This document shows positions 22,786 to 41,172 of a stretch of 64,000 nt of DNA, one piece after another. The position numbers were made by a program, and so were the translations under genes. The stretch spans positions 1 through 64,000 of the forward strand of contig CAMKRZ010000004.1 in NCBI GenBank assembly GCA_946415315.1, written 5' to 3'. The notes under the pieces are model-generated. The model did not search any database and was not told the DNA's origin. It worked only from the letters and a program-made list of their open reading frames with translations. Origin of the DNA: an uncultured Lachnoclostridium sp. (GTDB taxonomy: Bacteria; Bacillota; Clostridia; Lachnospirales; Lachnospiraceae). The number at the start of each line of letters is the position of its first letter. Position 1 is the stretch's first letter.

Positions 22786-22828
22786 GTTGCCCTTTAAACA
22801 CAAGGTTACGTTGAAGAGGAGCGTACGA

Positions 22829-24346: not shown

Positions 24347-24365
24347 CCGGGAGGGACATAGACTT

Positions 24366-24593: not shown

Positions 24594-24615
24594 CATGTGA
24601 TACGGGAGGGTTGCC

Positions 24616-26840: not shown

Positions 26841-27482
26841 ATGAAAGATATCGTTATCGTTTGCGCCGGCAGTTTTGGGCTGGAGACACTCTCGGTGATC
26901 GACGGGATCAATTATCAGGCGAGAGTAGACGGCCGCGGAGACCAGTATAATGTTCTGGGATTCCTTGACGACAACCTGAATGCGCTGGACGGAAAGGACG
27001 TGAAGGTACCGATCATCGGCAAGATTTCGGACTGGCAGCCGAAGGGCGATGAAGTGTACACGATCGGAGCGGCGTTCCCGAAGGTGAAGGAAAAACTGGC
27101 GACAATGCTGAAACAGAGAGGGTGTAAGTTTGAAACGCTGATCGCTCCGTGGAGCATTGTGTCGGATTACTGTACGCTCGGCGAAGGCTGTTTTATTACA
27201 GCCTACAGCATCAGCGCAGGCGCCGTGCTCGGGGATTTTGTGAATGTAAATGCTTCCATTATCGGTGCGGGCGCGCAGATCGGAGATTACAGCACAACAA
27301 CCGGCTTTACGGTGGTTGAGCATGCGACTGTCGGCAAGCGCGTATTTGTCGGAAGTCATGCGGTCATCACTTCCGGCGTAACCGTCGGTGACGATGCGCA
27401 GATCAGTGTCGGCAGTATCGTTACGGGCGATGTGGAGAAAGATGCGACGGTCTTTGGTGTCCCTGCCGTACAGATTGGTTGA
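26841..27482 (+). CDS. PglD/NeuD-family sugar N-acyltransferase (copy 1)
   Basis: A 213-residue protein with the N-terminal nucleotide-sugar binding beta-alpha domain (KDIVIVCAGSFGLE) and a C-terminal left-handed beta helix, the PglD/NeuD layout. The helix ends with VFGVPAVQIG. PglD enzymes acetylate the 4-amino group of UDP-4-amino sugars using acetyl-CoA, with a His base in the first coil region. It is a tandem homolog of the next gene, 13 bp apart. Relative to PglD, the N-terminal domain carries a longer loop (about residues 20-45). Confidence 0.8.
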   Translation: MKDIVIVCAGSFGLETLSVIDGINYQARVDGRGDQYNVLGFLDDNLNALDGKDVKVPIIGKISDWQPKGDEVYTIGAAFPKVKEKLATMLKQRGCKFETLIAPWSIVSDYCTLGEGCFITAYSISAGAVLGDFVNVNASIIGAGAQIGDYSTTTGFTVVEHATVGKRVFVGSHAVITSGVTVGDDAQISVGSIVTGDVEKDATVFGVPAVQIG

Positions 27483-27495
27483 TGAGGCGATGGCG

Positions 27496-28143
27496 ATGCA
27501 AAATGTTGTTATAGTGAGTGACGGGTTGTTCGGGCTGGAGATTTTCAGCATCCTTGAGCAGATCAACAAATGGAATGCTCAGAGAGATCGGGAACAGCCG
27601 TACCATATAGACGGTTTTGTTCTCCTGGATGAGACCGGTGTTGAGAGAGAGAATTTTCCGATCGCGGTACTGGGAACCGTGCGCGACTGGACTCCCGCTG
27701 AAGGTGTCAACGTTGTTCTCGGCGTGAAGGATCCGGCGAGAAAAAGGTTGGCAGTAACCCTCCTTCGTGAGAAAAATGCCCGGTTTGAGACGGTAGTTGC
27801 ACCTTGGATGCTTGCGTTCCCCAAATGGCTGTCACTCGGTGAAGGATGTGTTTTCGCTCCTTATTCGGCTAAGCCGGAACTGGTGGTCGGAAACTTTGCG
27901 ACAGTGCTCCACTCAATGGTATCGGGACACAGGATCGGGGAGTACAGTACGGTGATGCGTTATGCCAACATCGCTGGGGAAGAGGTCGGGAATGACTGTT
28001 TTGTAGGGGATCACGTGTTCCTGGCAGTGGGGAAGAACATCGGCGACGGGTGCGTTGTGGATCCGGGCAGTCTTGTTGTGAAAAATCTGAGGCCCGGAAC
28101 CCATGTGTGTGGAGTTCCGGCGAAGAGTGTTCGGGAGAAGTAA
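27496..28143 (+). CDS. PglD/NeuD-family sugar N-acyltransferase (copy 2)
   Basis: A 215-residue tandem homolog of the preceding gene: QNVVIVSDGLFGLEIFSILEQIN matches copy 1 in position, and both share FETxxAPWxxxxxxxxLGEGC and the closing VxGVPA. The beta helix of this copy is less regular (VVGNFATVLHSMVSGHRIG). The start at 27496 has GAGG 7 nt upstream; the ATG at 27490 is an alternative. The two may form a heteromeric acyltransferase or act on different amino groups. Confidence 0.75.
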   Translation: MQNVVIVSDGLFGLEIFSILEQINKWNAQRDREQPYHIDGFVLLDETGVERENFPIAVLGTVRDWTPAEGVNVVLGVKDPARKRLAVTLLREKNARFETVVAPWMLAFPKWLSLGEGCVFAPYSAKPELVVGNFATVLHSMVSGHRIGEYSTVMRYANIAGEEVGNDCFVGDHVFLAVGKNIGDGCVVDPGSLVVKNLRPGTHVCGVPAKSVREK

Positions 28144-28158
28144 GTTGGAGTTCGGATT

Positions 28159-29592
28159 ATGACGGATAAAGTAGTCGGAAAACGGATGCTTCTGAAATCC
28201 GGTTTTTGGTATACCGCCTCGGTGTTTTTGACGCGGGGAATGGTATTCATTACCATGCCGATTTTTACCAGGTTGATGACCAAGGCCCAATACGGTGATT
28301 TTGCCGTATTTTGCTCCTGGCAATCGATCCTGTTGATTTTCTGCAGCCTAGAGCTGCACGGGACGCTAAACCTGGCGCGATTTGATTATTCGGAAGACGA
28401 ATATAAGAGCTATATAACATCTTCGCTCAGTTTATGCTCGCTGATTACCGGAGTGCTGTTTGGTCTGTACTGTGTGTTTCCGCATATATTTGACAAGCTG
28501 TTCCTGATGAAGAAGGAATACATGTACGTGATGTTCGCGTATCTGTTTACGGCGCCGGCGCTGACGATGTTTCAGACAAAACAGCGTGTGGAATATAAAT
28601 ATAAGACCAGTTCGGCTATCTCAATAAGTGCATCCATCATCTCTCCGGCCATTGCTGTTGTGATGGTTCTTGTGATGAGGGATAACGACGCTCTGTTTGG
28701 CAGGATTATCGGGCAGCATGCGTTGTATATTGCACTGGGAACTGCCTTTTACATCTATTTTTTGTACGGGTCCAGAAAGATTAACGTATCCTACTGGAAG
28801 TATGCTTTGCGGCTGGGAATCCCGCTTGCCCTCAGTTATCTCGGAAGCCGAGTGCTTCTGACTGCGGATTCGATCGTGCTGAAGCATATGTGTACGCCCG
28901 AAAATGTCAGCAACATTTCAGTAACGCACAGTACAAGCCATATCATACTGCTTCTGGTTCAGACGATCAACATGGCGTGGGCGCCCTGGTTGTATGATAT
29001 GTTGAAGAGGCGCAACCACGACGATGTTAAGAAATTTTACCGCGGGTACCTGTGGATGGTCATCCTGGCGACGTTTGCCGTACTGGCGGTCGGCCCGGAG
29101 GTGATCCTTGTGCTCGGAGGAGCAAAGTATAAGGACGCGATCTACCTGTTGCCGCCGAACATCCTCTGCGGTATTTTTACGGTTCTGACGGCTAATTTTG
29201 TCAACATTGAGACATATCACAAGAAACCGAAGTATGCGGCAATACTGACCGGCGGAGTTGCTGTGTTAAATGTCGGGCTGGATATCCTGGGCGTGTATCT
29301 GTTCGGATATATGGCGGTATGCTACACGACAGTGCTGTGTCAGCTGCTGCTGTGCCTGCTTCACTATCGGATCACGATGAAGATGGAGATTAAGGAGATC
29401 CTTTCGGGGAAAACGTTTGTTGCGGTACTGATCGCAACGATCGCGCTCATTCCGATTGCTCTGTTACTGTATCAGAGCACGATAATCCGGTATTCGGTGA
29501 TCGCCGTGTGCTTTGTTGCGGTCGTTGCGCTGGTGATACATAAGAAAGAAGAGATTAAAAACCTGATCCAAAAAGTACGAAAAAAGAAATAG
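28159..29592 (+). CDS. Polysaccharide flippase (Wzx/MATE-like)
   Basis: A 477-residue integral membrane protein with about 12-14 helices and the family-typical N-terminus (GFWYTASVFLTRGMVFITMPIFTRLM), followed by a flexible Lys/Tyr-rich loop near residue 140. It belongs to the PST/Wzx group that flips undecaprenyl-linked repeat units across the membrane. Its presence with a Wzy-like polymerase and chain-length proteins implies a Wzx/Wzy-dependent pathway. Confidence 0.9.
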   Translation: MTDKVVGKRMLLKSGFWYTASVFLTRGMVFITMPIFTRLMTKAQYGDFAVFCSWQSILLIFCSLELHGTLNLARFDYSEDEYKSYITSSLSLCSLITGVLFGLYCVFPHIFDKLFLMKKEYMYVMFAYLFTAPALTMFQTKQRVEYKYKTSSAISISASIISPAIAVVMVLVMRDNDALFGRIIGQHALYIALGTAFYIYFLYGSRKINVSYWKYALRLGIPLALSYLGSRVLLTADSIVLKHMCTPENVSNISVTHSTSHIILLLVQTINMAWAPWLYDMLKRRNHDDVKKFYRGYLWMVILATFAVLAVGPEVILVLGGAKYKDAIYLLPPNILCGIFTVLTANFVNIETYHKKPKYAAILTGGVAVLNVGLDILGVYLFGYMAVCYTTVLCQLLLCLLHYRITMKMEIKEILSGKTFVAVLIATIALIPIALLLYQSTIIRYSVIAVCFVAVVALVIHKKEEIKNLIQKVRKKK

Positions 29593-29610: not shown

Positions 29611-30540
29611 ATGGCAAAAATCGGTTTTCTGTTTTCCGGACAGGGAGCGCAGTTCCCCGGAATGATGAAGGATCTGTACGCGGAGGAATCTGCGGCGAAG
29701 GAAGTGTTTGACAAGGCTGACGAGGCGTTGGGAAGAAGTATTTCCGGTCTCTGCTTTGAAGGAACGCAGGAGGAGCTGAACCTGACCCACAACACGCAGC
29801 CCTGCATGCTGACCGGAGATATTGCCGCGGCGATGACGCTGAAGGCACACGGAATCCAGGCGGATGCGGTTGCCGGATTCTCATTGGGAGAGTATGCGGC
29901 GCTTGCTTATGCCGGAGCGATCTCCCTTGAGGAAGTGTTCCCGCTCATTCAGATCCGCGCGGATGCCATGCAGGAGGCGGTTGCCCCCGGTGAAGGCGCG
30001 ATGGCGGCGTTCATCGGCGCTACTTCGGAGCAGGTTGAAAATATCTGCGAGAGAGTGACGAAGGGATATGTGGTAGCCGCAAATTATAACAGCCCTGTTC
30101 AGACCGTTGTTTCCGGTTCTGTGGCCGGCGTTGACGAGGCGTGCTCGATCGCAGAGGCAGAGGGACTTCGCTGTGTGAAGCTGGCAGTGAGCGCTCCGTT
30201 CCACTGCGCGATGATGGAGCCGGCGGCAAGGCGCCTGGCGGAGGAGTTCACGAAGATATCCTTCCAAAACCCCTCGGTTCCCGTTTATATGAATGTTGAC
30301 GGCGAGCCGCTGACGGACGGATCCCTTGTGGCAGACCTGCTTGTCAAGCAGGCGATGAGCCCTGTACAGTGGGTTAAAACACTGAAGAAGATGCAGGCGG
30401 ACGGGGTCGATACGTTCATCGAGTGCGGTGCCGGAAAGACGCTGTCCGGTCTTGTGAAGAAGACGCTTACCGATGTCCGGATTCTCCGTGTGGAGAACAT
30501 GAAGACGTTGCAGGAGACTCTGGAGGCTCTGAACGCTTGA
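29611..30540 (+). CDS. fabD: Malonyl-CoA:ACP transacylase (FabD-like)
   Basis: A 309-residue transacylase that moves malonyl from CoA to an acyl carrier protein. GQGAQFPGM at the start, the nucleophile Ser91 in GFSLGEYAAL, the malonate-binding Arg in LIQIRADAMQ and the base His198 in SAPFHCAMM are all present. The ATG at 29611 is preferred to the TTG at 29605 with GGGAGGA upstream. Inside a polysaccharide operon, next to two KAS III genes and a carrier protein, it most likely charges the dedicated carrier at 33161 with malonate, although it could also serve housekeeping fatty-acid synthesis. Confidence 0.93.
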   Translation: MAKIGFLFSGQGAQFPGMMKDLYAEESAAKEVFDKADEALGRSISGLCFEGTQEELNLTHNTQPCMLTGDIAAAMTLKAHGIQADAVAGFSLGEYAALAYAGAISLEEVFPLIQIRADAMQEAVAPGEGAMAAFIGATSEQVENICERVTKGYVVAANYNSPVQTVVSGSVAGVDEACSIAEAEGLRCVKLAVSAPFHCAMMEPAARRLAEEFTKISFQNPSVPVYMNVDGEPLTDGSLVADLLVKQAMSPVQWVKTLKKMQADGVDTFIECGAGKTLSGLVKKTLTDVRILRVENMKTLQETLEALNA

Positions 30541-31178
30541 TCGAGATCAGGAGATATGAATCAAAAGTGCTGTCTTCGAATATGTATGTGGTCGTTGAGG
30601 GGGACCGCGCGATCGTGATCGACCCCTCTGATGACGTCGGACCGGCAGAGGGGCTGCATGTGGAGTGCATTCTTCTGACGCACGAGCATTATGATCATAT
30701 ATCCGGAGTCAATCTTTGGAAAGAGGAGACGACCGCTCCGGTTGTTTGCAGCAGTGCCTGCGCAGCGAGCATTCGTGATCCGAAGAAAAACCTGGCGCGG
30801 TATTTCAGCGTGTTCTGTGAGCTGCAGACCTGGGTTAAGGCGGACACGATCCCGGAATACGATCCCGGGTATTGCTGTGAAGCAGACGAAACCTTTACGG
30901 ATCGGAAGGAGTTCGGCTGGCTGGGACACCGATGGCTGTTGTTTGAACTTCCGGGACACTCTCCGGGAAGTATCGGAATCCTGCTGGACGAGACGGCTTT
31001 ATTTTCCGGAGACAGTCTGATCAAGGATTGCAAGACCAATTTCGGGGCGCCCGGAGGAAGCCGAAAACAGTGGGAAACGACCAGTGTTCCGAGGCTGAAA
31101 AACCTTTCCAAAGATATTCGTGTGTATCCCGGTCATTTTGGGGATTTCATTTATGAGACAAATGAGTTATTATATTGA
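30537..31178 (+). CDS. MBL-fold hydrolase (glyoxalase II-like), possible thioesterase
   Basis: A 213-residue metallo-beta-lactamase-fold protein. The metal ligands are visible: THEHYDHISG (HxHxDH motif), LPGHSPGS, FSGDSLI and the C-terminal PGHFGDF. Most such proteins hydrolyse thioesters or esters. The start is TTG at 30537, overlapping the fabD stop by 4 nt and preceded by GGAGG, which suggests translational coupling to fabD. That coupling and the following ketoreductase and KAS genes make release or editing of acyl-ACP intermediates a plausible job; this is inference. Confidence 0.8.
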   Translation: MIEIRRYESKVLSSNMYVVVEGDRAIVIDPSDDVGPAEGLHVECILLTHEHYDHISGVNLWKEETTAPVVCSSACAASIRDPKKNLARYFSVFCELQTWVKADTIPEYDPGYCCEADETFTDRKEFGWLGHRWLLFELPGHSPGSIGILLDETALFSGDSLIKDCKTNFGAPGGSRKQWETTSVPRLKNLSKDIRVYPGHFGDFIYETNELLY

Positions 31179-31230
31179 CCATAGGTCGCCAAGAATTGCT
31201 TACTGAAAAAGAATACCAAGGAGGTAGATT

Positions 31231-32001
31231 ATGTACGATTACATTCAGATGGAGGGAAAACATGTTCTGATCACCGGCGGAGCTTCCGGAATCGGAAGAC
31301 AGACGGCAATCATCCTGAGCGAAATGGGCGCGAAAGTTTCGATTATGGATCTTCAGGAAGAAGGACTTAAGGAAACCCTGTCCATGCTGAAAGGTGAAGG
31401 GCACAGTATCCACGCAGTGGATCTGTCCAAGATCGAAGAACTTGAGGATATCGTTGTCGGGATCATCAAGGAAACCGGTCCGTTTGACGGATATGTTCAG
31501 TGTGCCGGTATCGTGAAGAATCTTCCGATCATCAACTATAAGTTTGAACGTCTTCACAAGATCATGCTTGTGAACTTCTACTCGTTCTTCGAGATCGTCC
31601 GTATTCTCAGCAAGAAGGGCCGCTACAATGAGGGCCTGAGCATTGTCGGCATTTCTTCGATCGCTGCAACTCACGGCGCAACGGCACAGGCCGCATACGG
31701 AGCTTCCAAGGCGGCAATGGACGGAGCAATGCGCTGCATGGCGAAAGAGCTCGGAGAGAAGAAGATCCGTGTAAACACCATTCAGCCTGCAGCTACGGCT
31801 ACGGCAATGTACACGGAGTACATGGAACTGAAAGCTACGATGAAGGAAACGGAGATGAAGATTCAGGCGAATCCTCGTCAGTTCCTCGGCATGAACGCAC
31901 CGGCGGATGTTGCCAACGCGATCATTTTCCTGCTTTCTCCCGTGTCGCACACGATCACCGGCGTTCATCTTCCGGTAGACGGCGGATTCGCCTGCTGCTA
32001 A
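31231..32001 (+). CDS. Short-chain dehydrogenase/ketoreductase (FabG-like), copy 1
   Basis: A 256-residue classical SDR: ITGGASGIGRQTA for NAD(P) binding and the catalytic Y156-GAS-K160. The expected role is reduction of a 3-oxoacyl-ACP to the 3-hydroxy form. It is clearly sister to the SDRs at 34932 and 40420; all share EIVRI, SIVGISS, the YxASKAAMD helix and KKIRVN. AAGGAGG lies 8 nt before the ATG. It directly precedes the first KAS III gene, so it probably acts on that product. Confidence 0.88.
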   Translation: MYDYIQMEGKHVLITGGASGIGRQTAIILSEMGAKVSIMDLQEEGLKETLSMLKGEGHSIHAVDLSKIEELEDIVVGIIKETGPFDGYVQCAGIVKNLPIINYKFERLHKIMLVNFYSFFEIVRILSKKGRYNEGLSIVGISSIAATHGATAQAAYGASKAAMDGAMRCMAKELGEKKIRVNTIQPAATATAMYTEYMELKATMKETEMKIQANPRQFLGMNAPADVANAIIFLLSPVSHTITGVHLPVDGGFACC

Positions 32002-32020
32002 TAGAAAGGAGTACGAAAGA

Positions 32021-33106
32021 ATGGTTTTCAGCAAATATGACGGCGTAAAGATCTCGGCAATCGCTGCTTCTGTTCCGCCGACTGTCATCGATGTAACAAG
32101 CGAGTTGGACAATCCGGATCCCAAGTATATCAAGAACTTTATGAAGAATACCGGGATCCTGGAGAAGAGAAAAAGCGATTTTAATCAGACTGCGGCTGAT
32201 TTTTCCTATACGGCGGCAAAGCAGATTATGGATTCGGGCTATTATAAACCGGAAGAGATCGGTGTTTTGATCAATCTTACGCAGACGCCGGATTATCGGA
32301 CTCCTTCTACTGCGCTTACGATTCAGAAGAGACTCGGCCTTTCCATGGATTGCCTGGTCTTTGATGTAAACCTCGGATGCTCGGGGTTTGTATATGGTGT
32401 TTCGCTTGCTGCAAGTATTCTGAACTCCTCCAATGCGAAGAAGGCGCTTGTAACGGTCGGCGATTCTCTTGCGAGAGGAAGAAGACACAGGAAGAAAGTA
32501 ATGTCCTCCAATACGGGACTTCTCTTCGGAGATGCCAGCGCGGCAATCCTTCTGGAGAAGAGCGAGGAGGGCAGCTTCAGTTCCGCTTTGATGAGCGACG
32601 GTACCAGACATAAGGCATTGTCGATCCCGTATGGTGCGTGGAGACATCCGGAGGGACCGCAGAGTGTTCCGGGCGATGATATCGCGGTGTTCAATTTTAC
32701 GATCAGCGAGGTGCCTAAGTTGCTCGAGGAGTATCTGGCACAGACGGACACAAAAATTGAGGATTATGACAACCTGGTGCTTCACCAGGCCAATATGATG
32801 ATCCTGAAGAACATTGCAAAACGTGTCGGCATGCCGATGGAAAATGTTCCGGTATGTCTTGACCGCTACGGGAATACGAGCGGCTGCTCGGTTCCGCTTG
32901 CGATCGTGGACAGATACGGAACGGTAGAGGAAGACCGGGAGGTAAACCTCCTTACGAGTTCGTTCGGAGTCGGTTTGTCCTGGGGCGTTGTCGGATTTAA
33001 GATCAACGTTAAGGATATTCTTCCGATTACGGACGGTTACGATACCTATGAAGACGGCTACTCCGATGATTACGATGATGAAGGCGAACTGAAGAAGTCT
33101 GAGTGA
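32021..33106 (+). CDS. 3-oxoacyl-ACP synthase III (KAS III), copy 1
   Basis: A 361-residue KAS III. The Cys-His-Asn triad is complete: Cys120 in NLGCSGFVYG, His255 in LHQAN and Asn285 in YGNTSG. KAS III enzymes condense an acyl-CoA starter, classically acetyl-CoA, with malonyl-ACP. It is about 30 residues longer than FabH; the C-terminal extension is very acidic (DGYDTYEDGYSDDYDDE). It is flanked by its ketoreductase (20-bp gap) and carrier protein (54-bp gap). A related copy is at 39323. Confidence 0.9.
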   Translation: MVFSKYDGVKISAIAASVPPTVIDVTSELDNPDPKYIKNFMKNTGILEKRKSDFNQTAADFSYTAAKQIMDSGYYKPEEIGVLINLTQTPDYRTPSTALTIQKRLGLSMDCLVFDVNLGCSGFVYGVSLAASILNSSNAKKALVTVGDSLARGRRHRKKVMSSNTGLLFGDASAAILLEKSEEGSFSSALMSDGTRHKALSIPYGAWRHPEGPQSVPGDDIAVFNFTISEVPKLLEEYLAQTDTKIEDYDNLVLHQANMMILKNIAKRVGMPMENVPVCLDRYGNTSGCSVPLAIVDRYGTVEEDREVNLLTSSFGVGLSWGVVGFKINVKDILPITDGYDTYEDGYSDDYDDEGELKKSE

Positions 33107-33160
33107 GTACATACAGCTTCTGCTGATGTATATAGAATTATTATGATGGAGGAACAAAAC

Positions 33161-33382
33161 ATGACTGAACGTGAAAAACTTGCGCTGCTTGAGGATATGC
33201 TTGAGCTGGACGAGGGTGATCTTACTGTAGACAAAGCATTGGATGACATTGATGAGTATGATTCCATGGCAAAACTGTCTCTGATCGTTCTCATGGAGGA
33301 TGAGTTTGGCGTTAAGCTGACCGGTGATGTGATCAAGGGTTTTGAGACCGTTGGAGACATTGTCGCGTTGATGAACAAGTAA
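33161..33382 (+). CDS. Acyl carrier protein (partner of the KAS III/ketoreductase set)
   Basis: A 73-residue, very acidic carrier protein. The phosphopantetheine Ser35 lies in DEYDSMAKLSLIV (DSM in place of DSL). The start at 33161 has GGAGG upstream; an earlier in-frame ATG at 33143 has no site and would precede that ribosome site. It would hold the growing short chain made by FabD, KAS III and the ketoreductases. The sequence differs clearly from the carrier at 24366, consistent with two separate acyl pathways. Confidence 0.88.
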   Translation: MTEREKLALLEDMLELDEGDLTVDKALDDIDEYDSMAKLSLIVLMEDEFGVKLTGDVIKGFETVGDIVALMNK

Positions 33383-33467
33383 TCACGCCGACTAAGAGGA
33401 ATCGTTTTCGGGATAATGTGGGAGCATATTATCCCGATTATGATGCCTGAGGAAAATGATGTTTTGC

Positions 33468-33502
33468 GGCATGTATGGTCAGACATGGCACATGCCTTTT
33501 TT
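33468..33502 (+). terminator. Intrinsic terminator inside the locus
   Basis: A 7-bp stem, GGCATGT paired with ACATGCC, with a 15-nt loop that can itself pair, followed by TTTTTT. A second hairpin, CGGGATAAT/ATTATCCCG (33409-33436), precedes it. It separates the carrier gene from the polymerase gene and probably lowers rather than abolishes downstream transcription. Confidence 0.65.
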
Positions 33503-33543
33503 GACTGCGTTTAACACCGTTGTCTTGTGGAGGGTCTGCATAA

Positions 33544-34908
33544 ATGCTGGCAGTGACGCTGGTTGTGCTCAGCCTGTTGTTTTTGTTGTCTTTTGTGATT
33601 TTTGACACCGATTTGCTTGCACCGCCCACAGCTGTGGCGCTGGTGTTCCTTTTTGGTTGTTTTTGCACATTTTACAATGAAGAACGATGGGGACTGGAGT
33701 TCTCGCCGAAAACAACCGGTCTGATTGCAGCGTGTATTCTGGCAACGATGGTCGGAGGGATCATTGGGGTCTGTATTTCTCGCTATCCCAAAATCGGAAA
33801 GTATTCGTTTTCTCATGAGGTAGTTCTGCCGAGAGAGATTGTGATCCAACCGCTGAAGACATATCTGGTTATGGCGTTTCAGTTGTTGGCATTTTACCTG
33901 ATTTACAGCCACATTCGGAGAGTGACCGGTTCTTCCGGATTATTATCTGCAATCGGAGAATATCGTCAACTAACAGCAAGTGTAACGACAGATGTTAATG
34001 ATCCGACGCTTAAAATGTCGTTCATAACAAAGAATGTTTTACAAGCCAGCAAGATGATCAGTGTCGTTTATGCTTACATTGTGGGCAACAACCTGATCGC
34101 TTCCAAAAGGAAGATCTCGCTGTCCTGGGTTCCGGTTATCCTTTACTCGTTGACGACGTTTATTCAGGGTGACCGATCCAATATGATCCGTCTCTGGGTA
34201 GTTGTGCTGATCGTCGCATACACCATACATAAACGTGCTGTCGGATGGAAAAAAAGCAAGTCCACGCGAAAAATGGTCCGACGTATGGCGATATCGCTGG
34301 TAGTTTTGGCTGCACTGTTTTCAGGAATCCGCGGATTTGTCGGTCGAACCTCGGATAAGGATCCGCTTTACTACATTACCTTTTATGCAGGGAGTCCAAT
34401 TGCAATATTGGATCAGTATTGGATCAATCCGATCGAGAAACCGGATGTTTTCGGTCAGAAGACATTTTATTATCTGAACCAATCCCTGACGGCTCTGATC
34501 GGGTGGCCGGGGAAATACAATTACTATTCCGATTTTATTACAAGTCCCAATGGCACATCCATCGGTAATGCACCTACCGCTATTCGACCGACTTATGTTG
34601 AGTTCGGCTTTTGGGGCTTTTTCTTGCTTTTTGCTTTGTTTGGTGTTTTTTATATGGTCCTTTATTGCAAGAGCAGAAAACCGAGTGGGGATAATCCGAT
34701 AGATTTTCGGTTACTGATGTATGCATATATCGCGTATGTATTCCTCATGTATTTTTACGCATCCTTTTTGGATTTCCTTTCGCACCTTTATATTAAGTAT
34801 ATGGTGGAAATGCTGCTGGTTCGCTGGTTTCTTGTCGGCAAGAAATACAAGCCTAACATACACTTGTTTTCGAGAGGGAACAGGAACGATATGGAATCAT
34901 CTTTTTGA
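33544..34908 (+). CDS. Wzy-like oligosaccharide repeat-unit polymerase
   Basis: A 454-residue integral membrane protein with about 10-12 helices and a large outer loop (about residues 270-350), the usual Wzy layout. Wzy proteins polymerise undecaprenyl-linked repeat units on the outer face of the membrane. Sequence signatures are weak in this family, so the call rests on topology and the Wzx/PGT/chain-length context. The loop segment ending FGFWGFFLLF resembles O-antigen polymerase family members. GGAGGG lies 8 nt before the ATG. The gene is noticeably more A+T rich than its neighbours, common for wzy. Confidence 0.78.
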   Translation: MLAVTLVVLSLLFLLSFVIFDTDLLAPPTAVALVFLFGCFCTFYNEERWGLEFSPKTTGLIAACILATMVGGIIGVCISRYPKIGKYSFSHEVVLPREIVIQPLKTYLVMAFQLLAFYLIYSHIRRVTGSSGLLSAIGEYRQLTASVTTDVNDPTLKMSFITKNVLQASKMISVVYAYIVGNNLIASKRKISLSWVPVILYSLTTFIQGDRSNMIRLWVVVLIVAYTIHKRAVGWKKSKSTRKMVRRMAISLVVLAALFSGIRGFVGRTSDKDPLYYITFYAGSPIAILDQYWINPIEKPDVFGQKTFYYLNQSLTALIGWPGKYNYYSDFITSPNGTSIGNAPTAIRPTYVEFGFWGFFLLFALFGVFYMVLYCKSRKPSGDNPIDFRLLMYAYIAYVFLMYFYASFLDFLSHLYIKYMVEMLLVRWFLVGKKYKPNIHLFSRGNRNDMESSF

Positions 34909-34931
34909 CCGGTGTTTAAGGAGGATTGAGA

Positions 34932-35693
34932 ATGATTAACCCAATGGATCTGACGGGGAAGAGGATATTGGTTACCGGTGCTACCGGCGGAATGGGGAAG
35001 GAAACTTCGATACTGCTGAGCAAGCTCGGAGCCAAGGTCGTAATGTGTGATATCCGCGAGGAAGCGCTGCAGAAGGTCTTCAGCCAGCTGAGCGGCGACG
35101 GCCATGCGTATTATGTATTTAACCTCAATGATATCGATGACATTGAGGCACTGGTAAAAAAGATGGTTGAAGAATGCGGGCCGTTTGACGGTTATGCCCA
35201 CTGCGCGGGAATCGCGCCGATGAGACCGCTGAAGATGACCAAGAAGGAAGACATTATAAAGGTAATGAACGCGAATCTGTTCTCCTTTATCGAGATCGTC
35301 CGCTGCATTACCAGGAAGGACTGCTTCACTGATGAGGGAAGCATTGTCGCGATCTCCTCGACGGCAAGCATTCAGGGGAAACAGTCCAAAGTAGCATACA
35401 GTGCATCAAAGGCAGCTCTGGATGGCGTGATCCGGTGCCTGATCTGCGATCTGAAGAAGAAGAAAATCCGTGTCAATTCCATTATGCCCTGCTGGGTAAA
35501 CACGGGAATGTACACGTCCTATATAGAAAGGTACCCGGACACCTTCGAAGTTCGGGAAATGCAGGAAAAACAGTATATGGGAGTTACGCAGCCGATCGAA
35601 GTGGCCAACACGATCGCGTTTCTTTTGAGCGATGCCGCGAAGACGATTACCGGAACGTCCATACTGATCGACGGCGGAATGTCCCAGGGATAA
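34932..35693 (+). CDS. Short-chain dehydrogenase/ketoreductase (FabG-like), copy 2
   Basis: A 253-residue classical SDR with VTGATGGMGKETS (NAD(P) loop) and catalytic Y156-SAS-K160. It is a close relative of the SDRs at 31231 and 40420. AGGAGG lies 7 nt before the ATG at 34932. It stands between the polymerase and the carboxyltransferase genes, without a KAS gene directly beside it. It may reduce a second keto group of the acyl chain, or a keto-sugar. Confidence 0.87.
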   Translation: MINPMDLTGKRILVTGATGGMGKETSILLSKLGAKVVMCDIREEALQKVFSQLSGDGHAYYVFNLNDIDDIEALVKKMVEECGPFDGYAHCAGIAPMRPLKMTKKEDIIKVMNANLFSFIEIVRCITRKDCFTDEGSIVAISSTASIQGKQSKVAYSASKAALDGVIRCLICDLKKKKIRVNSIMPCWVNTGMYTSYIERYPDTFEVREMQEKQYMGVTQPIEVANTIAFLLSDAAKTITGTSILIDGGMSQG

Positions 35694-35757
35694 AACGGGT
35701 TCGCCGAAAGATCTGCCTTGCAAGAATAACATAAACCAGAGAGGTACAGCAGAAGTA

Positions 35758-37308
35758 ATGGAACAGCAGTGGAAAAGCAGTATTGATGATCTCAATCAGC
35801 GCAGGGAAAATGTTGCTGCAGCTGGCGGTCCGGAGCGGATTGCCAAGCAGCATGATTCCGGGAAACTGACAGCGCGTGAGCGCATGGAAGCACTCTTCGA
35901 CGACGGGACATTTGTCGAGATCAATGATATGATCACCTCCCGCGCAACCGATTTCGGAATGGACAAAAAGAAACGTCCCGGCGACGGCGTCGTTACCGGT
36001 TACGGATACATTCACGGACGGATCGCGTTCGCGGCATCCCAGGATTTTACGGTTGGCGGAGGATCGCTCGGTGAAGCTCAGGCGATGAAGATCTGTCGTG
36101 CCATGGACAAGGCGATGGAGATGAAAGCTCCGTTTATCTCGATCAATGACAGCGGCGGAGCGAGAATTGAGGAAGGCATCGACGGACTCTCCGGTTATGC
36201 GGACATCTTCTACCGCAATACGATCGCGTCCGGCGTGATCCCGCAGATTTCGGTCATTCTCGGACCGTGCGCGGGCGGAGCCTGCTACTCCCCGGCTATC
36301 ACCGACTACATTTTCATGGCTGAGAAGAACAGCCAGATGTATATTACGGGTCCGGCAGTCGTGAAATCGGTGACCGGCGAGGTGATCTCCTCTGCCGATC
36401 TCGGTGGCGCTGCGGTGCACAGCTCGACCTCCGGCGTTGCGCATTTTGTGTACCCGGATGATCTTTCCTGCTTAAACGGCGTGCGTCAGCTTCTCGGATA
36501 TCTGCCGCAGAACAATCAGGACAGACCGATGCGTGTCGAGGGCAGAACGAGAGACAACTGCGCGATCATCAGTGATCTTGTGCCGGTAGATTCCAGGAAA
36601 CCGTATGATGTCAGAGCGGTGATCGACACATTTGTGGATGTGAACAGCTTCTTCGAGGTTCAGGCGAATTTTGCGAAAAATATCGTTGTCGGATTCGCGC
36701 GTCTCGACGGTGAAACGATCGGTATCATCGCGAACCAGAGCCAGTGTATGGCAGGATCGCTTGAGATCAATGCTTCGGACAAGGCAGCCAGATTCATCCG
36801 TTTTTGCGACTGCTTCAACATTCCGCTGCTCACGCTTGTCGATGTTCCGGCGTTCCTTCCGGGCAGCCAGCAGGAGCACGGCGGCATCATCCGTCACGGC
36901 GCAAAGATGCTGTTCGCGTATTCCGAGGCAACGGTGCCGAAGGTCGGTCTGATCATGCGCAAAGCGTACGGCGGAGCCTACATTGCCATGAACAGCAAGG
37001 GAACCGGCGCGGACGTTGTCTATGCATGGCCGATTGCCGAGATCGCCGTCATGGGTGCTTCGGGAGCGGTTTCCATCATCGGAAAGAAGGCGATCGAGCA
37101 GGCGGAGGATCCGCAGGCCAAGAAGGAAGAGCTTCTTGACGAGTACAACAAGAAATTCATGAATCCGTATATTGCTGCAGAGCACGGCTATGTCGACGAA
37201 GTCATTCTTCCGGAGGAGACCAGAGAGAAGATTGCTGCGGCCTTCCGGATGCTGAAGTCGAAGGATCGCGTGCAGCCGGCTAAGAAGCACGGAAATATTC
37301 CGCTGTAA
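35758..37308 (+). CDS. Acyl-CoA carboxyltransferase subunit (MmdA/12S transcarboxylase type)
   Basis: A 516-residue crotonase-fold carboxyltransferase with duplicated N- and C-halves (GGARIEEGIDGLSGY with its oxyanion-hole PCAGGACYSPAITDY, and FLPGSQQEHGGIIRHGAK with RKAYGGAYIAMNS). It moves carboxylate between biotin and an acyl-CoA (acetyl-, propionyl- or methylmalonyl-CoA). Length and order match the Propionibacterium 12S subunit and MmdA/PccB. With the biotin carrier at 37508 and the pyruvate-side subunit at 37905 it completes a transcarboxylase. Sequence alone does not decide acetyl- versus propionyl-CoA. Confidence 0.93.
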   Translation: MEQQWKSSIDDLNQRRENVAAAGGPERIAKQHDSGKLTARERMEALFDDGTFVEINDMITSRATDFGMDKKKRPGDGVVTGYGYIHGRIAFAASQDFTVGGGSLGEAQAMKICRAMDKAMEMKAPFISINDSGGARIEEGIDGLSGYADIFYRNTIASGVIPQISVILGPCAGGACYSPAITDYIFMAEKNSQMYITGPAVVKSVTGEVISSADLGGAAVHSSTSGVAHFVYPDDLSCLNGVRQLLGYLPQNNQDRPMRVEGRTRDNCAIISDLVPVDSRKPYDVRAVIDTFVDVNSFFEVQANFAKNIVVGFARLDGETIGIIANQSQCMAGSLEINASDKAARFIRFCDCFNIPLLTLVDVPAFLPGSQQEHGGIIRHGAKMLFAYSEATVPKVGLIMRKAYGGAYIAMNSKGTGADVVYAWPIAEIAVMGASGAVSIIGKKAIEQAEDPQAKKEELLDEYNKKFMNPYIAAEHGYVDEVILPEETREKIAAAFRMLKSKDRVQPAKKHGNIPL

Positions 37309-37331
37309 TAGACCGAAAGGAGAACTACGCG

Positions 37332-37511
37332 ATGGAGTTGGAAAAAGTTCTGGCGATGGCGGTGGCCGCTGTGGCAGAGGAAAATAAAACCGATGTCAAA
37401 AGAGTTGTTGTTCGTTCCTTCCGGGAAGTGTACAAGAGCAGCCTGGAAGAGTATATCGAGAAGAACAACATCACGTATCACAAATATCAACTGGAGGATT
37501 CGAAAGCATGA
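37332..37511 (+). CDS. Small 59-residue protein between carboxyltransferase and biotin carrier genes
   Basis: It encodes 59 residues starting MELEKVLAMAVAAVAEENK and ending YHKYQLEDSKA. GAAAGGAG lies upstream and the stop overlaps the next start (ATGA), so it is clearly translated and coupled. No membrane helix is visible, unlike OadG/MmdD-type small subunits; two amphipathic helices are predicted by eye. It is probably an assembly or linker subunit joining carboxyltransferase and biotin carrier, the role small delta/epsilon chains play in decarboxylases. This is inference from position. Confidence 0.75.
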   Translation: MELEKVLAMAVAAVAEENKTDVKRVVVRSFREVYKSSLEEYIEKNNITYHKYQLEDSKA

Positions 37512-37894
37512 GCAAGTACCGTATTACACTGGATGGCAAGACCTATGAGATGGAGATCGAACTGATGGGGGAAGGCAGTGTGTCTCCGGTGGCACCCAAG
37601 AAAGAGACCGCAGCGCCTGTAAGCGCTCCGAAGGCAGTCGTTGAGAGCGCGCCTGCGAAGAGCGCGGCTGTCGCAGGCAGTGCGGGAGCAGTGGTTGCAC
37701 CTATGCCCGGTACGGTAATCCGGATCGAGAAGGGCGAGGGTTCCGCAGTGAAGGCGGGCGAGCTTGTTCTGATCCTGGAAGCTATGAAGATGGAAAATGA
37801 GATTCTTGCGCCGGTCGACGGCACGATCACGGCAATGAACTGTACCGCAGGCGGAACCGTAGCCGGCGGCGATGTATTGTTTGAAGTGAAGTGA
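37508..37894 (+). CDS. Biotin carboxyl carrier protein (1.3S type)
   Basis: A 128-residue biotinyl protein. The biotinylated Lys94 lies in EAMKMENE, inside the closing lipoyl/biotinyl domain (about residues 58-128). An Ala/Pro/Lys-rich flexible linker (about 22-56) follows the N-terminal YRITLDGKTYEMEIE. Size and layout match the 1.3S subunit of transcarboxylase and the biotin subunits of sodium-pumping decarboxylases. It carries the carboxyl group between the two carboxyltransferases. Confidence 0.95.
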   Translation: MSKYRITLDGKTYEMEIELMGEGSVSPVAPKKETAAPVSAPKAVVESAPAKSAAVAGSAGAVVAPMPGTVIRIEKGEGSAVKAGELVLILEAMKMENEILAPVDGTITAMNCTAGGTVAGGDVLFEVK

Positions 37895-37904
37895 GGGTTA
37901 TTGG

Positions 37905-39299
37905 ATGAGTGAAGTGTTTGAAAGCAGGAAACCTTTGCTGATTACGGACACCATTTTGCGAGATGCACACCAGAGCCAGGCTGCCACGCGCATGAAGCTG
38001 GAGGATATGCTTCCGGCCTGCGAGATCCTGGACAGCATCGGTTACTGGTCCATCGAGTGCTGGGGAGGAGCTACGTTTGACTCGTGTATGCGCTTCCTGA
38101 ATGAGGATCCGTGGGAGAGGTTGCGTACATTGCGGAAAGCATTGCCGAAGACGAAACTGCAGATGCTTCTTCGCGGACAGAATCTTCTCGGATACCGTCA
38201 TTATGCGGATGATATGGTCGAGGCTTTCTGCCGGAAATCAATTGAGAACGGAATCGATGTTGTCCGCATTTTTGATGCGCTGAACGATGTCCGGAACATG
38301 GAGGCATCCATCAAAGCCGTAAAGAAGTACGGCGGAATGGTGGAAGCGGCGATGAGCTATACGACAAGTCCGGTTCACAGCGAAGAGTATTTTGTCAAGA
38401 AGGCGATCGTGCTGGAGCAGATGGGGGCAGATACGATCTGCATAAAGGATATGGCGAACCTTCTGCTTCCCGTTGACGCATATAATCTGGTTAAGAAGCT
38501 GAAGGAGAAGGTTTCGATCCCGATCCATCTTCACACGCACAATACGACCGGAACCGGTTCCATGGTCTACCTCATGGCGGCTATGGCAGGAGTTGACATT
38601 GTCGACTGCGCGTTATCTCCGTTTGCCAACGGAACGGCTCAGCCGGCGACCGAGTCGCTTGTCGCATCCCTCAAGGGAACCGGGAGAGATACCGGTCTGG
38701 ATCTGAAGAAGCTTAACGAAGCGGCAGTGCATTTTAAGACGGTTGCCGCGAAAATGGAGAAAGAGGGAACCATCAGTTCGAAGGTTCTTCGCGTTGACCC
38801 GAATACCCTGCTGTACCAGGTGCCGGGCGGCATGCTCTCGAACCTTCTGTCGCAGTTGAAGCAGGCGAACGCAGAGGATAAGATGGAAGCTGTTCTTGCG
38901 GAGGTTCCGCGCGTAAGGGAGGACTTCGGATATCCTCCGCTGGTCACGCCGACCAGCCAGATCGTCGGTACGCAGGCGGTTCTGAACGTGCTGATGGGAC
39001 GCTACAAGAGCTTTACGAAAGAATCCAAGGGCCTTCTTCGCGGCGAGTACGGCGAGCTTCCCGGAACGGTCAACGAGGAGGTTCTGAAGAAGGCGATCGG
39101 TGACGCCGAAGTGATCACCTGCAGACCGGCGGATAATCTTGAGCCGGAGCTGAGCCGGATTCAGGCACAATACAGTGATATTGCGAAGACAGAGGAAGAT
39201 GTTCTGAGCTGCGCCATGTTCCCGCAGGTAGCACCGGAATTCATAAAGCGGCGGGACAACCTGAATGTACGCGAAATAACCGTGGACTGGATCAGGTAG
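37905..39299 (+). CDS. Pyruvate/oxaloacetate carboxyltransferase (5S / OadA / PycB type)
   Basis: A 464-residue TIM-barrel carboxyltransferase that transfers CO2 between oxaloacetate/pyruvate and biotin. Metal site and catalytic motifs are present: DTILRDAHQSQAATRM near residue 15, the Lys of CIKDMANLL (carbamylated in relatives), HLHTHNTTGTG, and a C-terminal conserved domain. No biotinyl domain is fused, as in 5S of Propionibacterium; OadA and PycB normally carry one. Together with the genes at 35758 and 37508 this points to a multi-subunit transcarboxylase. Confidence 0.93.
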   Translation: MSEVFESRKPLLITDTILRDAHQSQAATRMKLEDMLPACEILDSIGYWSIECWGGATFDSCMRFLNEDPWERLRTLRKALPKTKLQMLLRGQNLLGYRHYADDMVEAFCRKSIENGIDVVRIFDALNDVRNMEASIKAVKKYGGMVEAAMSYTTSPVHSEEYFVKKAIVLEQMGADTICIKDMANLLLPVDAYNLVKKLKEKVSIPIHLHTHNTTGTGSMVYLMAAMAGVDIVDCALSPFANGTAQPATESLVASLKGTGRDTGLDLKKLNEAAVHFKTVAAKMEKEGTISSKVLRVDPNTLLYQVPGGMLSNLLSQLKQANAEDKMEAVLAEVPRVREDFGYPPLVTPTSQIVGTQAVLNVLMGRYKSFTKESKGLLRGEYGELPGTVNEEVLKKAIGDAEVITCRPADNLEPELSRIQAQYSDIAKTEEDVLSCAMFPQVAPEFIKRRDNLNVREITVDWIR

Positions 39300-39322
39300 T
39301 TTGATTAAACAGGGAGGTCGAT

Positions 39323-40408
39323 ATGGCTTTCTTTCAATACGATAACATCGGGATTGCCGGAGTAGCATCCGCAGTGCCTACGCAGAGAGTGGAAATTGAC
39401 AGCTTCATTGAACGGTTCGGACAGGATGCTGTCGAGAAGTTTTCCAAGATGACCGGCGTGAAGGAGTTTCGGAAAACGCTTGAGCATCAGACTGCTTCGG
39501 ATCTTGGCTATGTCGCCGCGGAGCGGTTGCTGAAGCACAAGGGGATCAACCGGGAGGAGATCGGCGCTCTCGTTTTCATCGCGCACAGCGTTGACTATCG
39601 CAGACCGGCTACGGCTTGCGTGTTGCACAAGCGGCTCGGTCTGTCGAAGGACTGCGCGGCATTTGATATCGGACTCGGTTGCTCGGCGACTGTCTACGGA
39701 CTTCAAGTGCTTGCCTCGATGATGGCAAATTCCGACATCACGAAAGCGCTTCTGATAACCGGAGAGACGCTTACGAAGATGGTCAATCCCGAGGATAAGT
39801 CCGTTGCGATGCTGTTCGGTGACGGCGGTTCGGCAGTGCTGCTCGAGAAGAGGGAGAACTCCCCGATGAAAGTTCTTCTCCGCTCGGACGGAAACGGTTA
39901 TAACGCGATCATCGCTCCCGCAGGCGGCTACCGGAACATGAATGCCGTACGCGAGGATGTACAGTGGCCGGACGGCAATATCCGGAACCTGTATAACACA
40001 TATATGAACGGGACGGATGTTTTCAGTTTTACGATCTCCGAAGTCCCTGCGGCGATCCGCGATTTTATTGAAAAGACGGGCGAAGATCCGGAGCAGTACG
40101 ACTGCTTTGCGTTCCATCAGGCTAACCAGTACATTTCCAAACAGTTGGCCAAGAAATTCAAGATCCCGATGGAGAAAATGCCGCTCTGCATCGATCGTTA
40201 CGGCAACACCTCGGCGCCTGCGGCGACGATCGCTCTCTGTGATCGTTACGGGGATGTCAGCGGTGAGACGATCAAAACCATGTTCTGTTGCTTTGGAGTA
40301 GGTTTGTCCTGGGGAGTTGCATCCGCAACCATCAATACGGATGACATTCTGCCGGTGGCAGAGACCGATGAGATATTCCTGGAAGGAATCATCAACGAAC
40401 CGTTTTAA
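39323..40408 (+). CDS. 3-oxoacyl-ACP synthase III (KAS III), copy 2
   Basis: A 361-residue KAS III of the same length as copy 1, with complete triad Cys120 (GLGCSATVYG), His265 (FHQAN) and Asn295 (YGNTSA). The C-terminus lacks the acidic tail of copy 1. Having two KAS III proteins suggests two condensation steps with different starters, for example acetyl-CoA and then a 3-hydroxyacyl unit. AGGGAGG lies just before the ATG and the third ketoreductase follows 11 bp later. Confidence 0.9.
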   Translation: MAFFQYDNIGIAGVASAVPTQRVEIDSFIERFGQDAVEKFSKMTGVKEFRKTLEHQTASDLGYVAAERLLKHKGINREEIGALVFIAHSVDYRRPATACVLHKRLGLSKDCAAFDIGLGCSATVYGLQVLASMMANSDITKALLITGETLTKMVNPEDKSVAMLFGDGGSAVLLEKRENSPMKVLLRSDGNGYNAIIAPAGGYRNMNAVREDVQWPDGNIRNLYNTYMNGTDVFSFTISEVPAAIRDFIEKTGEDPEQYDCFAFHQANQYISKQLAKKFKIPMEKMPLCIDRYGNTSAPAATIALCDRYGDVSGETIKTMFCCFGVGLSWGVASATINTDDILPVAETDEIFLEGIINEPF

Positions 40409-40419
40409 GGAGATCAACA

Positions 40420-41172
40420 ATGATTAAATTTGATTTTTCGGGAAAAAGAATACTGGTTACCGGCGCTTCCTCCGGAATCGGTGAGGCGATCAGCCGTACG
40501 CTGACGGCTGCCGGAGCAGAAGTGATCATGGTTGCGAGAGACCCTGAGAAACTCGCCGCCGCGGCTGAGTCTGTCGGAGCCGCCGCGTACTACGCGATGG
40601 ATCTGGCGGATGTTCCCGCGATCGCGGAGCAGATCGAGGCGATCATCAAGGAGAGAGGACCTCTGGATGGATTCGTTCACAGCGCAGGCATCGGAACCGT
40701 GCGCCCGCTCAAACTGTGCGTTTATGACTACATGAAACAGATGATGGACATCAACTTCTTCTCGTTTGTTGAGATTGTCCGGATCATCACTAAAAAGAAG
40801 AACTTTAACGAGGGCATGAGCATTGTCGGCATCTCGTCCGTAGCGTCGCAGGAAGGCAATCAGAGCAAAACCGGCTACTGTGCCTCGAAGGCGGCTATGG
40901 ACAGCGCGATCCGCTGCATGGCCAAAGAGCTCGGATCCAAGAAGATCCGTGTCAACTCGGTGATGCCGGGCATCACGAGAACGGCGATCTTTGACCAGAT
41001 TATGGATAACGGCGGGGATTCGGATGATCTGAAGGGAATCCTGCAGAGACAGTATCTGGGAATCTGCGAACCGGACAATATCGCGGCTACGGTTGCGTTT
41101 CTGCTGTCCGAGGAAGCAGCCTTCATCACCGGATCGTCCGTTGCGGTTGATTCCGGAAGACTGTCGTCGTAA
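40420..41172 (+). CDS. Short-chain dehydrogenase/ketoreductase (FabG-like), copy 3
   Basis: A 250-residue classical SDR with VTGASSGIGEAIS and catalytic Y153-CAS-K157. It is sister to copies 1 and 2 and the partner gene of KAS III copy 2. It would reduce the product of that synthase to the hydroxyacyl form. AAGGAG precedes the ATG. It is the last gene of the acyl-building block before the iron-sulfur and pyruvyltransferase pair. Confidence 0.88.
   Translation: MIKFDFSGKRILVTGASSGIGEAISRTLTAAGAEVIMVARDPEKLAAAAESVGAAAYYAMDLADVPAIAEQIEAIIKERGPLDGFVHSAGIGTVRPLKLCVYDYMKQMMDINFFSFVEIVRIITKKKNFNEGMSIVGISSVASQEGNQSKTGYCASKAAMDSAIRCMAKELGSKKIRVNSVMPGITRTAIFDQIMDNGGDSDDLKGILQRQYLGICEPDNIAATVAFLLSEEAAFITGSSVAVDSGRLSS

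Follow-up and report, generated by a model that had tools for sequence, protein, structure and literature searches.

A putative short-hydroxyacyl line with a candidate malonyl supply in a polysaccharide operon of an uncultured Lachnoclostridium species

Genes of acyl-chain synthesis that lie among genes of sugar-polymer assembly raise the question of what their product is used for. Such an arrangement was found in the window, by which we mean the whole stretch of 64,000 nucleotides analysed here, from an uncultured Lachnoclostridium sp. (assembly GCA_946415315.1, contig CAMKRZ010000004.1). The window opens a 221-kb contig (C4), which belongs to a genome of 2.93 Mb that is 97.5% complete. Forward-strand genes run from 18696 to 43504, mostly with little space between them, as one tight operon that encodes a Wzx/Wzy polysaccharide pathway (Table 1). 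The original prediction, made from this DNA alone, proposed that part of the operon is a private line making a short hydroxyacyl group for an amino sugar.

The whole of the evidence is best explained by an operon for a repeat-unit polysaccharide that bears a short hydroxyacyl chain on an amino sugar, and we regard this explanation as probable. It draws on the gene content, the catalytic triads and motifs, the recurrence of the set in other genomes, the phylogeny of its enzymes and the genes that are missing.

Acyl-chain genes in the operon

The inventory given in the original prediction was confirmed. FabD, a metallo-beta-lactamase (MBL)-fold hydrolase, an acyl carrier protein (ACP2), two 3-ketoacyl-ACP synthases (KAS) of type III (KAS1 and KAS2) and three ketoreductases of the short-chain dehydrogenase/reductase (SDR) family (SDR1 to SDR3) are all present on the forward strand of one sugar operon. 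The Cys-His-Asn triad, which had been called complete, was confirmed by alignment in KAS1 and KAS2 and in all 10 proteins of one KAS alignment. The glycine motif and the S-Y-K residues were found in each of the three reductases. The reported lack of KAS I/II, dehydratase and enoyl reductase also held, with no match to any of these within 29605-41172. The operon is not a complete type II fatty acid synthase (FAS II); the KAS I/II, dehydratase and enoyl reductase of this genome are located on another contig, C2. The inventory was nevertheless incomplete, as a 12S-type carboxyltransferase, a 59-residue protein, a biotin carboxyl carrier protein (BCCP) and a 5S-type carboxyltransferase within the same interval had been passed over, and so had the spread of the gene set through the Clostridia.

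The MBL-fold hydrolase is probably a thioesterase. Its metal site (HxHxDH, H150, D168 and H209) was invariant in 21 aligned rows, which included the window and left out a partial sequence (L051). The 4,6-dehydratase and the aminotransferase required for a 4-amino-4,6-dideoxy sugar are both in the operon, an assignment made at the level of family and not of stereochemistry. PglD1 is a candidate for the enzyme that acylates the 4-amino group of this sugar with the hydroxyacyl chain carried by ACP2.

Comparison within the genus showed how well the set has been maintained. KAS1 was searched at E 1e-30 among the 22 genus genomes contained in 245 relatives. The cassette was found in two of the 22, namely the genome under study and G009 (the same as locus L049), a yak-rumen Lachnospiraceae metagenome-assembled genome (MAG), RGIG10172. 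Three others had one more distant KAS III and 17 gave no match. The G009 operon keeps FabD, MBL, SDR1, KAS1, ACP2, 12S, the 59-residue protein, BCCP, 5S, KAS2 and SDR3. No counterpart of SDR2 or of the adenylation/ACP1/hexapeptide/GNAT module was found in the G009 operon, the module being absent between PglE and PglC; SDR2 and this side module are dispensable.

SDR1, KAS1, FabD, 12S, 5S, KAS2 and SDR3 share 94-98% protein identity between the two genomes, and 33-45% of the shared fourfold-degenerate sites differ in the core genes. The values for single genes were 98.1% identity with 38% of fourfold sites different for KAS1, 98.4% with 33% for SDR1, 97.3% with 41% for 12S and 75.2% with 36% for MBL. 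ACP2 is 100% identical over 73 residues and BCCP is 89% identical, and the comparison genes gave 82.9% with 54% (FabF) and 86.4% with 57% (AtpG). The core of the acyl line is under strong constraint, the MBL hydrolase less so. A chance co-location of the acyl genes is excluded, because the core is 94-98% identical in G009 despite the fourfold divergence. Recent transfer of the core between the two genomes was also considered; strong constraint is the simpler reading, since the fourfold divergence of the core (0.33-0.45) is merely somewhat below that of FabZ, FabF, AtpG and FabK (0.50-0.61).

Table 1. Features of the polysaccharide operon, with positions in the window
Feature	Position	Strand	Supporting match or remark
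PglF/FlaA1-type NDP-sugar 4,6-dehydratase, membrane anchored	18696..20813	+	PF02719 E 4.7e-116; PseB/FnlA-type models below cut-off
PglE/LegC-family sugar aminotransferase	20900..22213	+	PF01041; TIGR04181 (LegC family) 280 bits, below cut-off 420
Optional side module	22237..25188	+	GNAT, adenylation enzyme, ACP1, hexapeptide transferase
Side module: GNAT	22237-22785	+	
Side module: amino-acid adenylation enzyme	22787-24346	+	
Side module: carrier protein ACP1	24366-24593	+	
Side module: hexapeptide transferase	24616-25188	+	
PglC-type phosphosugar transferase (first sugar to lipid carrier)	25227..25850	+	PF02397 E 2.5e-59
PglD1, NeuD/PglB/VioB-like sugar acyltransferase	26841..27482	+	TIGR03570 118.9 bits, E 2e-34, below cut-off 160.8
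PglD2, second NeuD/PglD-like acyltransferase	27490..28143	+	TIGR03570 73.7 bits, E 1.5e-20, below cut-off 160.8
Wzx flippase	28159..29592	+	PF01943 E 5.5e-21
FabD, malonyl-CoA:ACP transacylase	29611/29605-30540	+	TIGR00128 (fabD) 290.5 bits, above cut-off 260.9
MBL-fold (glyoxalase II-like) hydrolase	30510..31178	+	PF00753
SDR1 ketoreductase, partner of KAS1	31231..32001	+	
KAS1 (KAS1a clade), KAS III-type, predicted extender	32021..33106	+	
ACP2, dedicated acyl carrier protein	33143/33161..33382	+	PF00550; DSM site
Wzy, oligosaccharide repeat unit polymerase	33544..34908	+	TIGR04370 96.4 bits, above cut-off 40
SDR2 ketoreductase	34926..35693	+	
12S-type carboxyltransferase (acyl-CoA carboxylating)	35758..37308	+	PF01039 E 2.6e-184; best solved chains 1vrg, 7w5u, 1on3
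59-residue protein	37332..37511	+	No Pfam family, no predicted membrane helix
BCCP (1.3S)	37508..37894	+	PF00364; AMKM motif
5S-type carboxyltransferase (pyruvate carboxylase subunit B/oxaloacetate decarboxylase alpha)	37905..39299	+	NF006761 712 bits, above cut-off 402
KAS2, KAS III-type, predicted initiator	39323..40408	+	
SDR3 ketoreductase, partner of KAS2	40420..41172	+	
FrhB-like protein	41215-42405	+	Near operon end
Polysaccharide pyruvyl transferase	42428-43504	+	Last operon gene
Terminator-like hairpin 3' of last operon gene	43542..43564	+	Consensus match only; 18 sites vs 15.6 expected in region

Transcarboxylase genes and the extender unit

The transcarboxylase of Propionibacterium makes methylmalonyl-CoA in propionate fermentation. 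Its parts, a 12S subunit, a 5S subunit and a biotin carrier, without a biotin carboxylase or a membrane decarboxylase subunit, resemble what was found here. The 12S, BCCP and 5S genes together are the subunit set of a soluble transcarboxylase, and the operon 12S matches a solved 12S chain, 1on3. No match to a biotin carboxylase was found in the operon or elsewhere in the genome, and none to a membrane decarboxylase beta subunit in the operon. Unlike the Propionibacterium enzyme, the set in the window sits with FabD and an acyl line, and it could therefore explain a source of malonyl-CoA for the operon FabD. The 59-residue protein might belong to the transcarboxylase as a small structural subunit; it also lies between 12S and BCCP in six of the 27 other loci described below (L049, L050, L051, L053, L066 and L074).

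The substrate of the 12S subunit is the point at which the strongest rival departs. According to this rival, 12S carboxylates propionyl-CoA, and a methylmalonyl extender gives a methyl-branched chain. The best models for 12S are indeed of the methylmalonyl-CoA decarboxylase/propionyl-CoA carboxylase type, although FabD passes the cut-off of the ACP S-malonyltransferase family. We also considered the residue which we take, from Streptomyces carboxylase work, to separate acetyl- from propionyl-type carboxylases. The window has Ile here, as do 13 of the 15 12S homologues in the loci; the other two are a fragment and a sequence without the searched pattern. The chain 7w5u, named acetyl-CoA carboxylase, has Ile at this position, which speaks against the rival. 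This is weakened by 1vrg, named propionyl-CoA carboxylase beta subunit, which has Ile as well, so Ile alone does not decide between the two substrates. Conversion of acetyl-CoA to malonyl-CoA is the favoured reaction on these sequence features, and a propionyl-CoA substrate is considered unlikely.

A second set of 5S, oxaloacetate decarboxylase beta (PF03977), BCCP, oxaloacetate decarboxylase gamma (PF04277) and 12S genes was found in the genome at C12:29634-35198. By its subunits it is of the Na+-pumping decarboxylase type. The operon 12S and the one on C12 were the only carboxyltransferases found in the genome. Elsewhere, 12S at 51-61% identity was seen without BCCP or 5S in the stretch available (L057, L058, L061, L064, L065, L070 and L071). 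In three of these, L061, L065 and L070, the genome also gave no match to a biotin carboxylase.

Recurrence, KAS pairing and the predicted product

The original prediction had suggested a search for the same gene set in other genomes. A named genome collection was scanned with an alignment of four KAS2-type proteins, which gave 32 loci. Four cyanobacterial loci (L076-L079, 33-34% identity) and a 7-kb fragment (L080) were left out; the 27 other loci that were kept contain all or part of the block. By title, 23 of these are from Clostridia, two from Bacillota only, one from Bacteroides and one from Chloroflexi. Among the Clostridia are [Clostridium] symbiosum ATCC 14940 (L058, with one KAS), [Clostridium] aminophilum and Oribacterium, of which Oribacterium sp. 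WCC10 (L064) also has one KAS. The taxon labels are soft, since MAGs or uncultured records account for 23 of the 27.

Within the stretches seen, a PglC-type gene was present in 21 of the 27 loci, MBL in 21, FabD in 17 and 12S in 15. A PglE-superfamily aminotransferase was present in 18, many at just 23-33% identity. The usual order is PglD, FabD, MBL, KAS2, SDR, an optional KAS1 and SDR, and ACP2. A PglD/VioB-like acyltransferase stands directly upstream in 18/27 loci, meaning that the homologue ends at most 400 bp before the first of FabD, MBL and KAS2; three of the nine remaining loci have no room for it. The SDR2 clade follows KAS2 immediately in five other loci (L056, L062, L072, L074 and L075). 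The gene set is, on this comparative evidence, a modular cassette that appears to have spread through the Clostridia and in which the KAS1a and KAS1b genes are optional. A separate SDR clade of 11 rows, mostly beside AMP-forming ligases, was observed mainly with one-KAS cassettes (L055, L057, L058, L061, L063, L064, L065, L066, L069, L070 and L071).

The KAS tree included four FabH rows, those of 10 intended FabH proteins that passed the open reading frame filter. It separated a KAS2 clade, to which each of 28 loci (the window included) contributes one member, from a KAS1 clade that occurs in 15 of the 28 and comprises two subclades, KAS1a and KAS1b. Each of the two three-KAS loci, L074 and L075, has one KAS2, one KAS1a and one KAS1b. 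The KAS clades stand apart from the FabH rows, and Cys, His and Asn are invariant in all 45 KAS aligned. In E. coli FabH (chain 1ebl), Phe87 gates the pocket; the residue aligned with it is Arg in 28/28 KAS2, Thr in 9/10 KAS1a and Ile or Leu in 7/7 KAS1b. Three long-branched KAS from G129 were placed in the tree and left out of the counts. They belong to a distant locus on G129:C13 (L046, L047) near an FrhB/pyruvyl-transferase-like gene, and one of these KAS III-like proteins is 538 residues long with extra C-terminal sequence.

Loci with more synthases tend to have more reductases. The SDR1 clade occurs in 8/10 KAS1a loci and in 0/18 others. The number of KAS correlates with the number of cassette-clade SDRs over the 27 loci (rho 0.74, with 0/2000 permutations as high). 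The window, the 11-row clade and the distant SDRs of L054 do not enter this count, and because the loci share ancestry the p-values overstate their independence. KAS to SDR ratios were 1:1 in 11 loci, 2:2 in seven, 3:3 in one, 2:1 in five, 1:0 in two and 3:2 in one. The relation of one pair to one round is not strict, because a single cassette-clade SDR accompanies the two KAS in five of the 12 two-KAS loci and none is present in two one-KAS loci, which counts against a simple rule, as do the three SDRs for two KAS in the window itself. The pattern favours a division of labour, with KAS2 as initiator and KAS1 as extender, though not as a strict law. The best reading of these counts is about one KAS/reductase pair per C2 unit, so that the number of pairs would set the chain length.

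Known systems provide a product for comparison. In Pseudomonas syringae, the KAS III gene vioS, the reductase gene vioR, acp and the acyltransferase VioB lead to N-(3-hydroxy-1-oxobutyl) viosamine, and by mass spectrometry the modified viosamine was missing from flagellin of a vioR mutant (PMC3927599). This island, with its KAS III, ketoreductase, ACP and sugar acyltransferase, matches the one-KAS loci by description. It differs from the window in serving a flagellin glycan, in having one KAS and in that the account available names no malonyl-supply genes. The wfpC-wfpG genes of Flavobacterium psychrophilum, with predicted roles, comprise two 3-ketoacyl-ACP synthases, an ACP, a ketoreductase and a PglD homologue; nuclear magnetic resonance placed 3,5-dihydroxyhexanoyl on the 4-amino group of Qui2NAc4N, and the genes for this R-group influence the antigenicity of the lipopolysaccharide (PMC6519341). 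The window likewise has two KAS and ketoreductases with a dedicated ACP, next to pglE/pglF-type genes of a Wzx/Wzy locus, and PglD1 and PglD2 are its candidates for the PglD homologue. This likeness, too, is one of description; the F. psychrophilum product is a Gram-negative lipopolysaccharide, and no FabD, transcarboxylase or MBL hydrolase is named in the text available. The Vibrio cholerae O3 O-antigen, compared as a structure only, carries the group predicted for the window, 3,5-dihydroxyhexanoyl, on N-4 of 2,4-diamino-2,4-dideoxy-quinovose, with a configuration given as undetermined in the part of the report available (PMC3210612). By this comparison one KAS fits a C4 and two KAS a C6 chain, and the window, with its two KAS, would be expected to make 3,5-dihydroxyhexanoyl. 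The mechanism belongs to a known kind. Searches of the open literature found no Clostridial cassette, malonyl supply by transcarboxylation, graded KAS number or handover of malonyl supply.

From these comparisons we infer the following steps. PglF and PglE would make a 4-amino-4,6-dideoxy sugar of the bacillosamine type. The 5S subunit would pass a carboxyl group from oxaloacetate to BCCP and the 12S subunit from BCCP to acetyl-CoA, giving malonyl-CoA; this transcarboxylation would need neither biotin carboxylase nor ATP. FabD would load malonyl onto ACP2, KAS2 would condense malonyl-ACP2 with acetyl-CoA, and reduction by SDR3 would yield 3-hydroxybutyryl-ACP2. KAS1 would then add a second malonyl unit, which SDR1 would reduce to 3,5-dihydroxyhexanoyl-ACP2. 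The PglD/VioB-type acyltransferase would move the chain to the 4-amino group, with assembly and export of the polymer left to PglC, Wzx and Wzy. A probable task of the MBL hydrolase is to edit or release thioesters that have stalled. Cassettes with one KAS/reductase pair would give 3-hydroxybutyryl on a 4-amino sugar.

The MBL hydrolase could be given a larger part. A second rival holds that the product is a free or otherwise used small polyketide acid, released by this enzyme and secreted or activated elsewhere with no direct transfer from ACP to sugar. The frequency of the MBL gene and its complete metal site agree with this, as do the AMP-forming ligases near many one-KAS cassettes. The position of the PglD/VioB-like gene directly upstream in most loci argues against it, and Wzx was the only exporter matched in the window operon. 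The P. syringae and F. psychrophilum counterparts, moreover, are described in the available accounts as transferring their chains to a 4-amino sugar. We consider a free acid quite unlikely, and transfer to the amino sugar is preferred.

Malonyl supply and membrane lipid synthesis

The FAS II cluster was compared in four genus members (G009, G008, G002 and G019). In G009 and G019 the whole gene order could be read; in G008 and G002 antisense frames masked some genes in the open reading frame filter, and part of the order was obtained. The order in these relatives is ACP, FabK, FabD, FabG, FabF, AccB, FabZ, AccC, AccD, AccA and an acyl ligase. In the genome under study, the cluster lies on C2 between the tmRNA gene and the ATP synthase genes and consists of ACP, FabK::FabG, FabF, FabZ and the ligase. 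FabK::FabG is an in-frame fusion of 572 residues (C2:4831-6549) in which the start Met of FabG is gone; the relatives have fabD between the two genes. Exactly fabD, accB, accC, accD and accA, the malonyl-supply genes, are missing, and the gaps are at three separate places. Biotin carboxylase gave 0 matches in this genome and is present in 16/22 of the genus; the carboxyltransferase model does detect AccD and AccA of G009 and G019.

An assembly gap behind the missing genes is not favoured at the level of the assembly, as the FabK-FabG, FabF-FabZ and FabZ-ligase junctions are contiguous on one contig with no N. Decay of the cluster is not favoured either. The identities of FabF, FabK, FabZ and FabG to the relatives fall short of those among the relatives by about 5 points at most (FabF 81.0 to G019 vs 84.4 for G009-G019; FabG 59.8 to G002 vs 65.0 for G008-G002), and the fused gene is open over 572 residues.

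The operon FabD is the only FabD found in the genome (a single PF00698 match), and the operon KAS III genes are the only ones found there. Three options follow: the operon FabD serves both lines, or an intact-looking FAS II is idle, or a malonyl loader has gone unrecognised. Since FabD was found only in the operon, with no biotin carboxylase and a cluster devoid of fabD and accBCDA, the malonyl supply is probably shared. The operon FabD, and possibly the transcarboxylase, would probably also feed the reduced FAS II cluster, and the glycan operon may in this way supply membrane lipids too. The line can therefore not be called private, as the original prediction had it. That prediction also named, as evidence that would speak against it, that these are the organism's only fab genes and serve membrane lipids; FabD and KAS III are indeed the only ones found, but the genome has FabK-FabG, FabF and FabZ of its own.

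Thirteen of the 27 carrier genomes had a ketoacyl-synt match below E 1e-20, four had short weak matches (6e-7 to 3e-4) and 10 had none. The 14 without FabF below E 1e-20 were also without biotin carboxylase, which was found in nine of the other 13; the completeness of the 27 genomes was not given, which bears on these absences. FabF-based FAS II seems absent in the 14, and because they show neither FabF, beyond weak fragments, nor biotin carboxylase, it is unlikely that the cassette serves FAS II there. Within the stretches seen, FabD is present in 10 of these 14 and 12S in seven. Biotin carboxylase was found in 9/27 carriers vs 166/245 relatives (Fisher p 6e-4), a comparison not relied on, as the sets differ in taxonomy and share L049, L055 and L063 (G009, G038 and G218). 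In the sister species G014 (97% complete, same genus), no match to FabF, FabD or biotin carboxylase was found, and FAS II seems to have been lost outright.

The weakest rival, that these are FAS II supply and initiation genes placed by chance in a sugar operon and serving membrane lipids only, would account for the sole FabD and KAS III and for the reduced cluster, but is very unlikely and was rejected as a sole role given the 14 carriers without FabF below E 1e-20 or biotin carboxylase, the cassette in G009, where the FAS II cluster is complete and includes a FabD and acetyl-CoA carboxylase of its own, the separation of the KAS clades from the four FabH rows, and the 17 genus members without a KAS1 match, in which FAS II may not need a KAS III (a divergent one could be missed).

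The dedicated hydroxyacyl line for an amino sugar is supported by the PglF/LegC genes, the NeuD/PglD/VioB-like acyltransferases, the recurrence and the FabF-less carriers, and the prediction as a whole stands in part. Other observations weigh against the proposed pathway. The TIGR03570 scores of PglD1 and PglD2 are both under the curated cut-off. The full 12S/BCCP/5S set occurs in only 6/27 loci, 12S was not found in the available stretch of seven of the 14 FabF-less carriers, and the C12 set could also supply malonyl-CoA, though not malonyl-ACP. KAS2 was the search bait, so its presence in every locus is by construction. L054 and L060 are without FabD, MBL and any cassette-clade SDR, L067 is without FabD, MBL and ACP2, and contig ends truncate L051 and L053. 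F. psychrophilum is described with one reductase beside two KAS (PMC6519341), compared with three reductases in the window.

A broader proposal joins two claims, namely that the capsule operon took over the whole malonyl supply after loss of acetyl-CoA carboxylase and the FAS II fabD, so that the glycan and FabF-made lipids share malonyl-ACP from transcarboxylation and FabD, and that the cassette is a general line working pair by pair. We put this joint proposal forward tentatively, as possible rather than probable. To our knowledge, acetyl-CoA carboxylase is usually treated as indispensable for malonyl-CoA in bacteria that synthesise fatty acids; here it would be replaced by a capsule-operon transcarboxylase and FabD, and surface-glycan chemistry would be tied to central lipid metabolism. 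Each added KAS/reductase pair would contribute one C2 unit, so that three-KAS loci would make 3,5,7-trihydroxyoctanoyl, and the varied number of pairs would be a simple, testable rule for hydroxyacyl length on glycans. Such groups may have gone unnoticed on many rumen and gut Clostridia.

Some minor features were also observed. A promoter scan of the region gave matches at chance level. The side module forms a second and optional acyl unit, perhaps for aminoacyl groups, and pieces resembling it occur in L063. The genus member G015 has a polyketide-synthase-like cluster (G015:C26:90513-121275) that holds 10 of the 11 ketoacyl-synt matches of its genome. Proteins with Ig-like and leucine-rich repeats are encoded downstream of the operon in the window (58674-60710) and in L048 (2722-5460).

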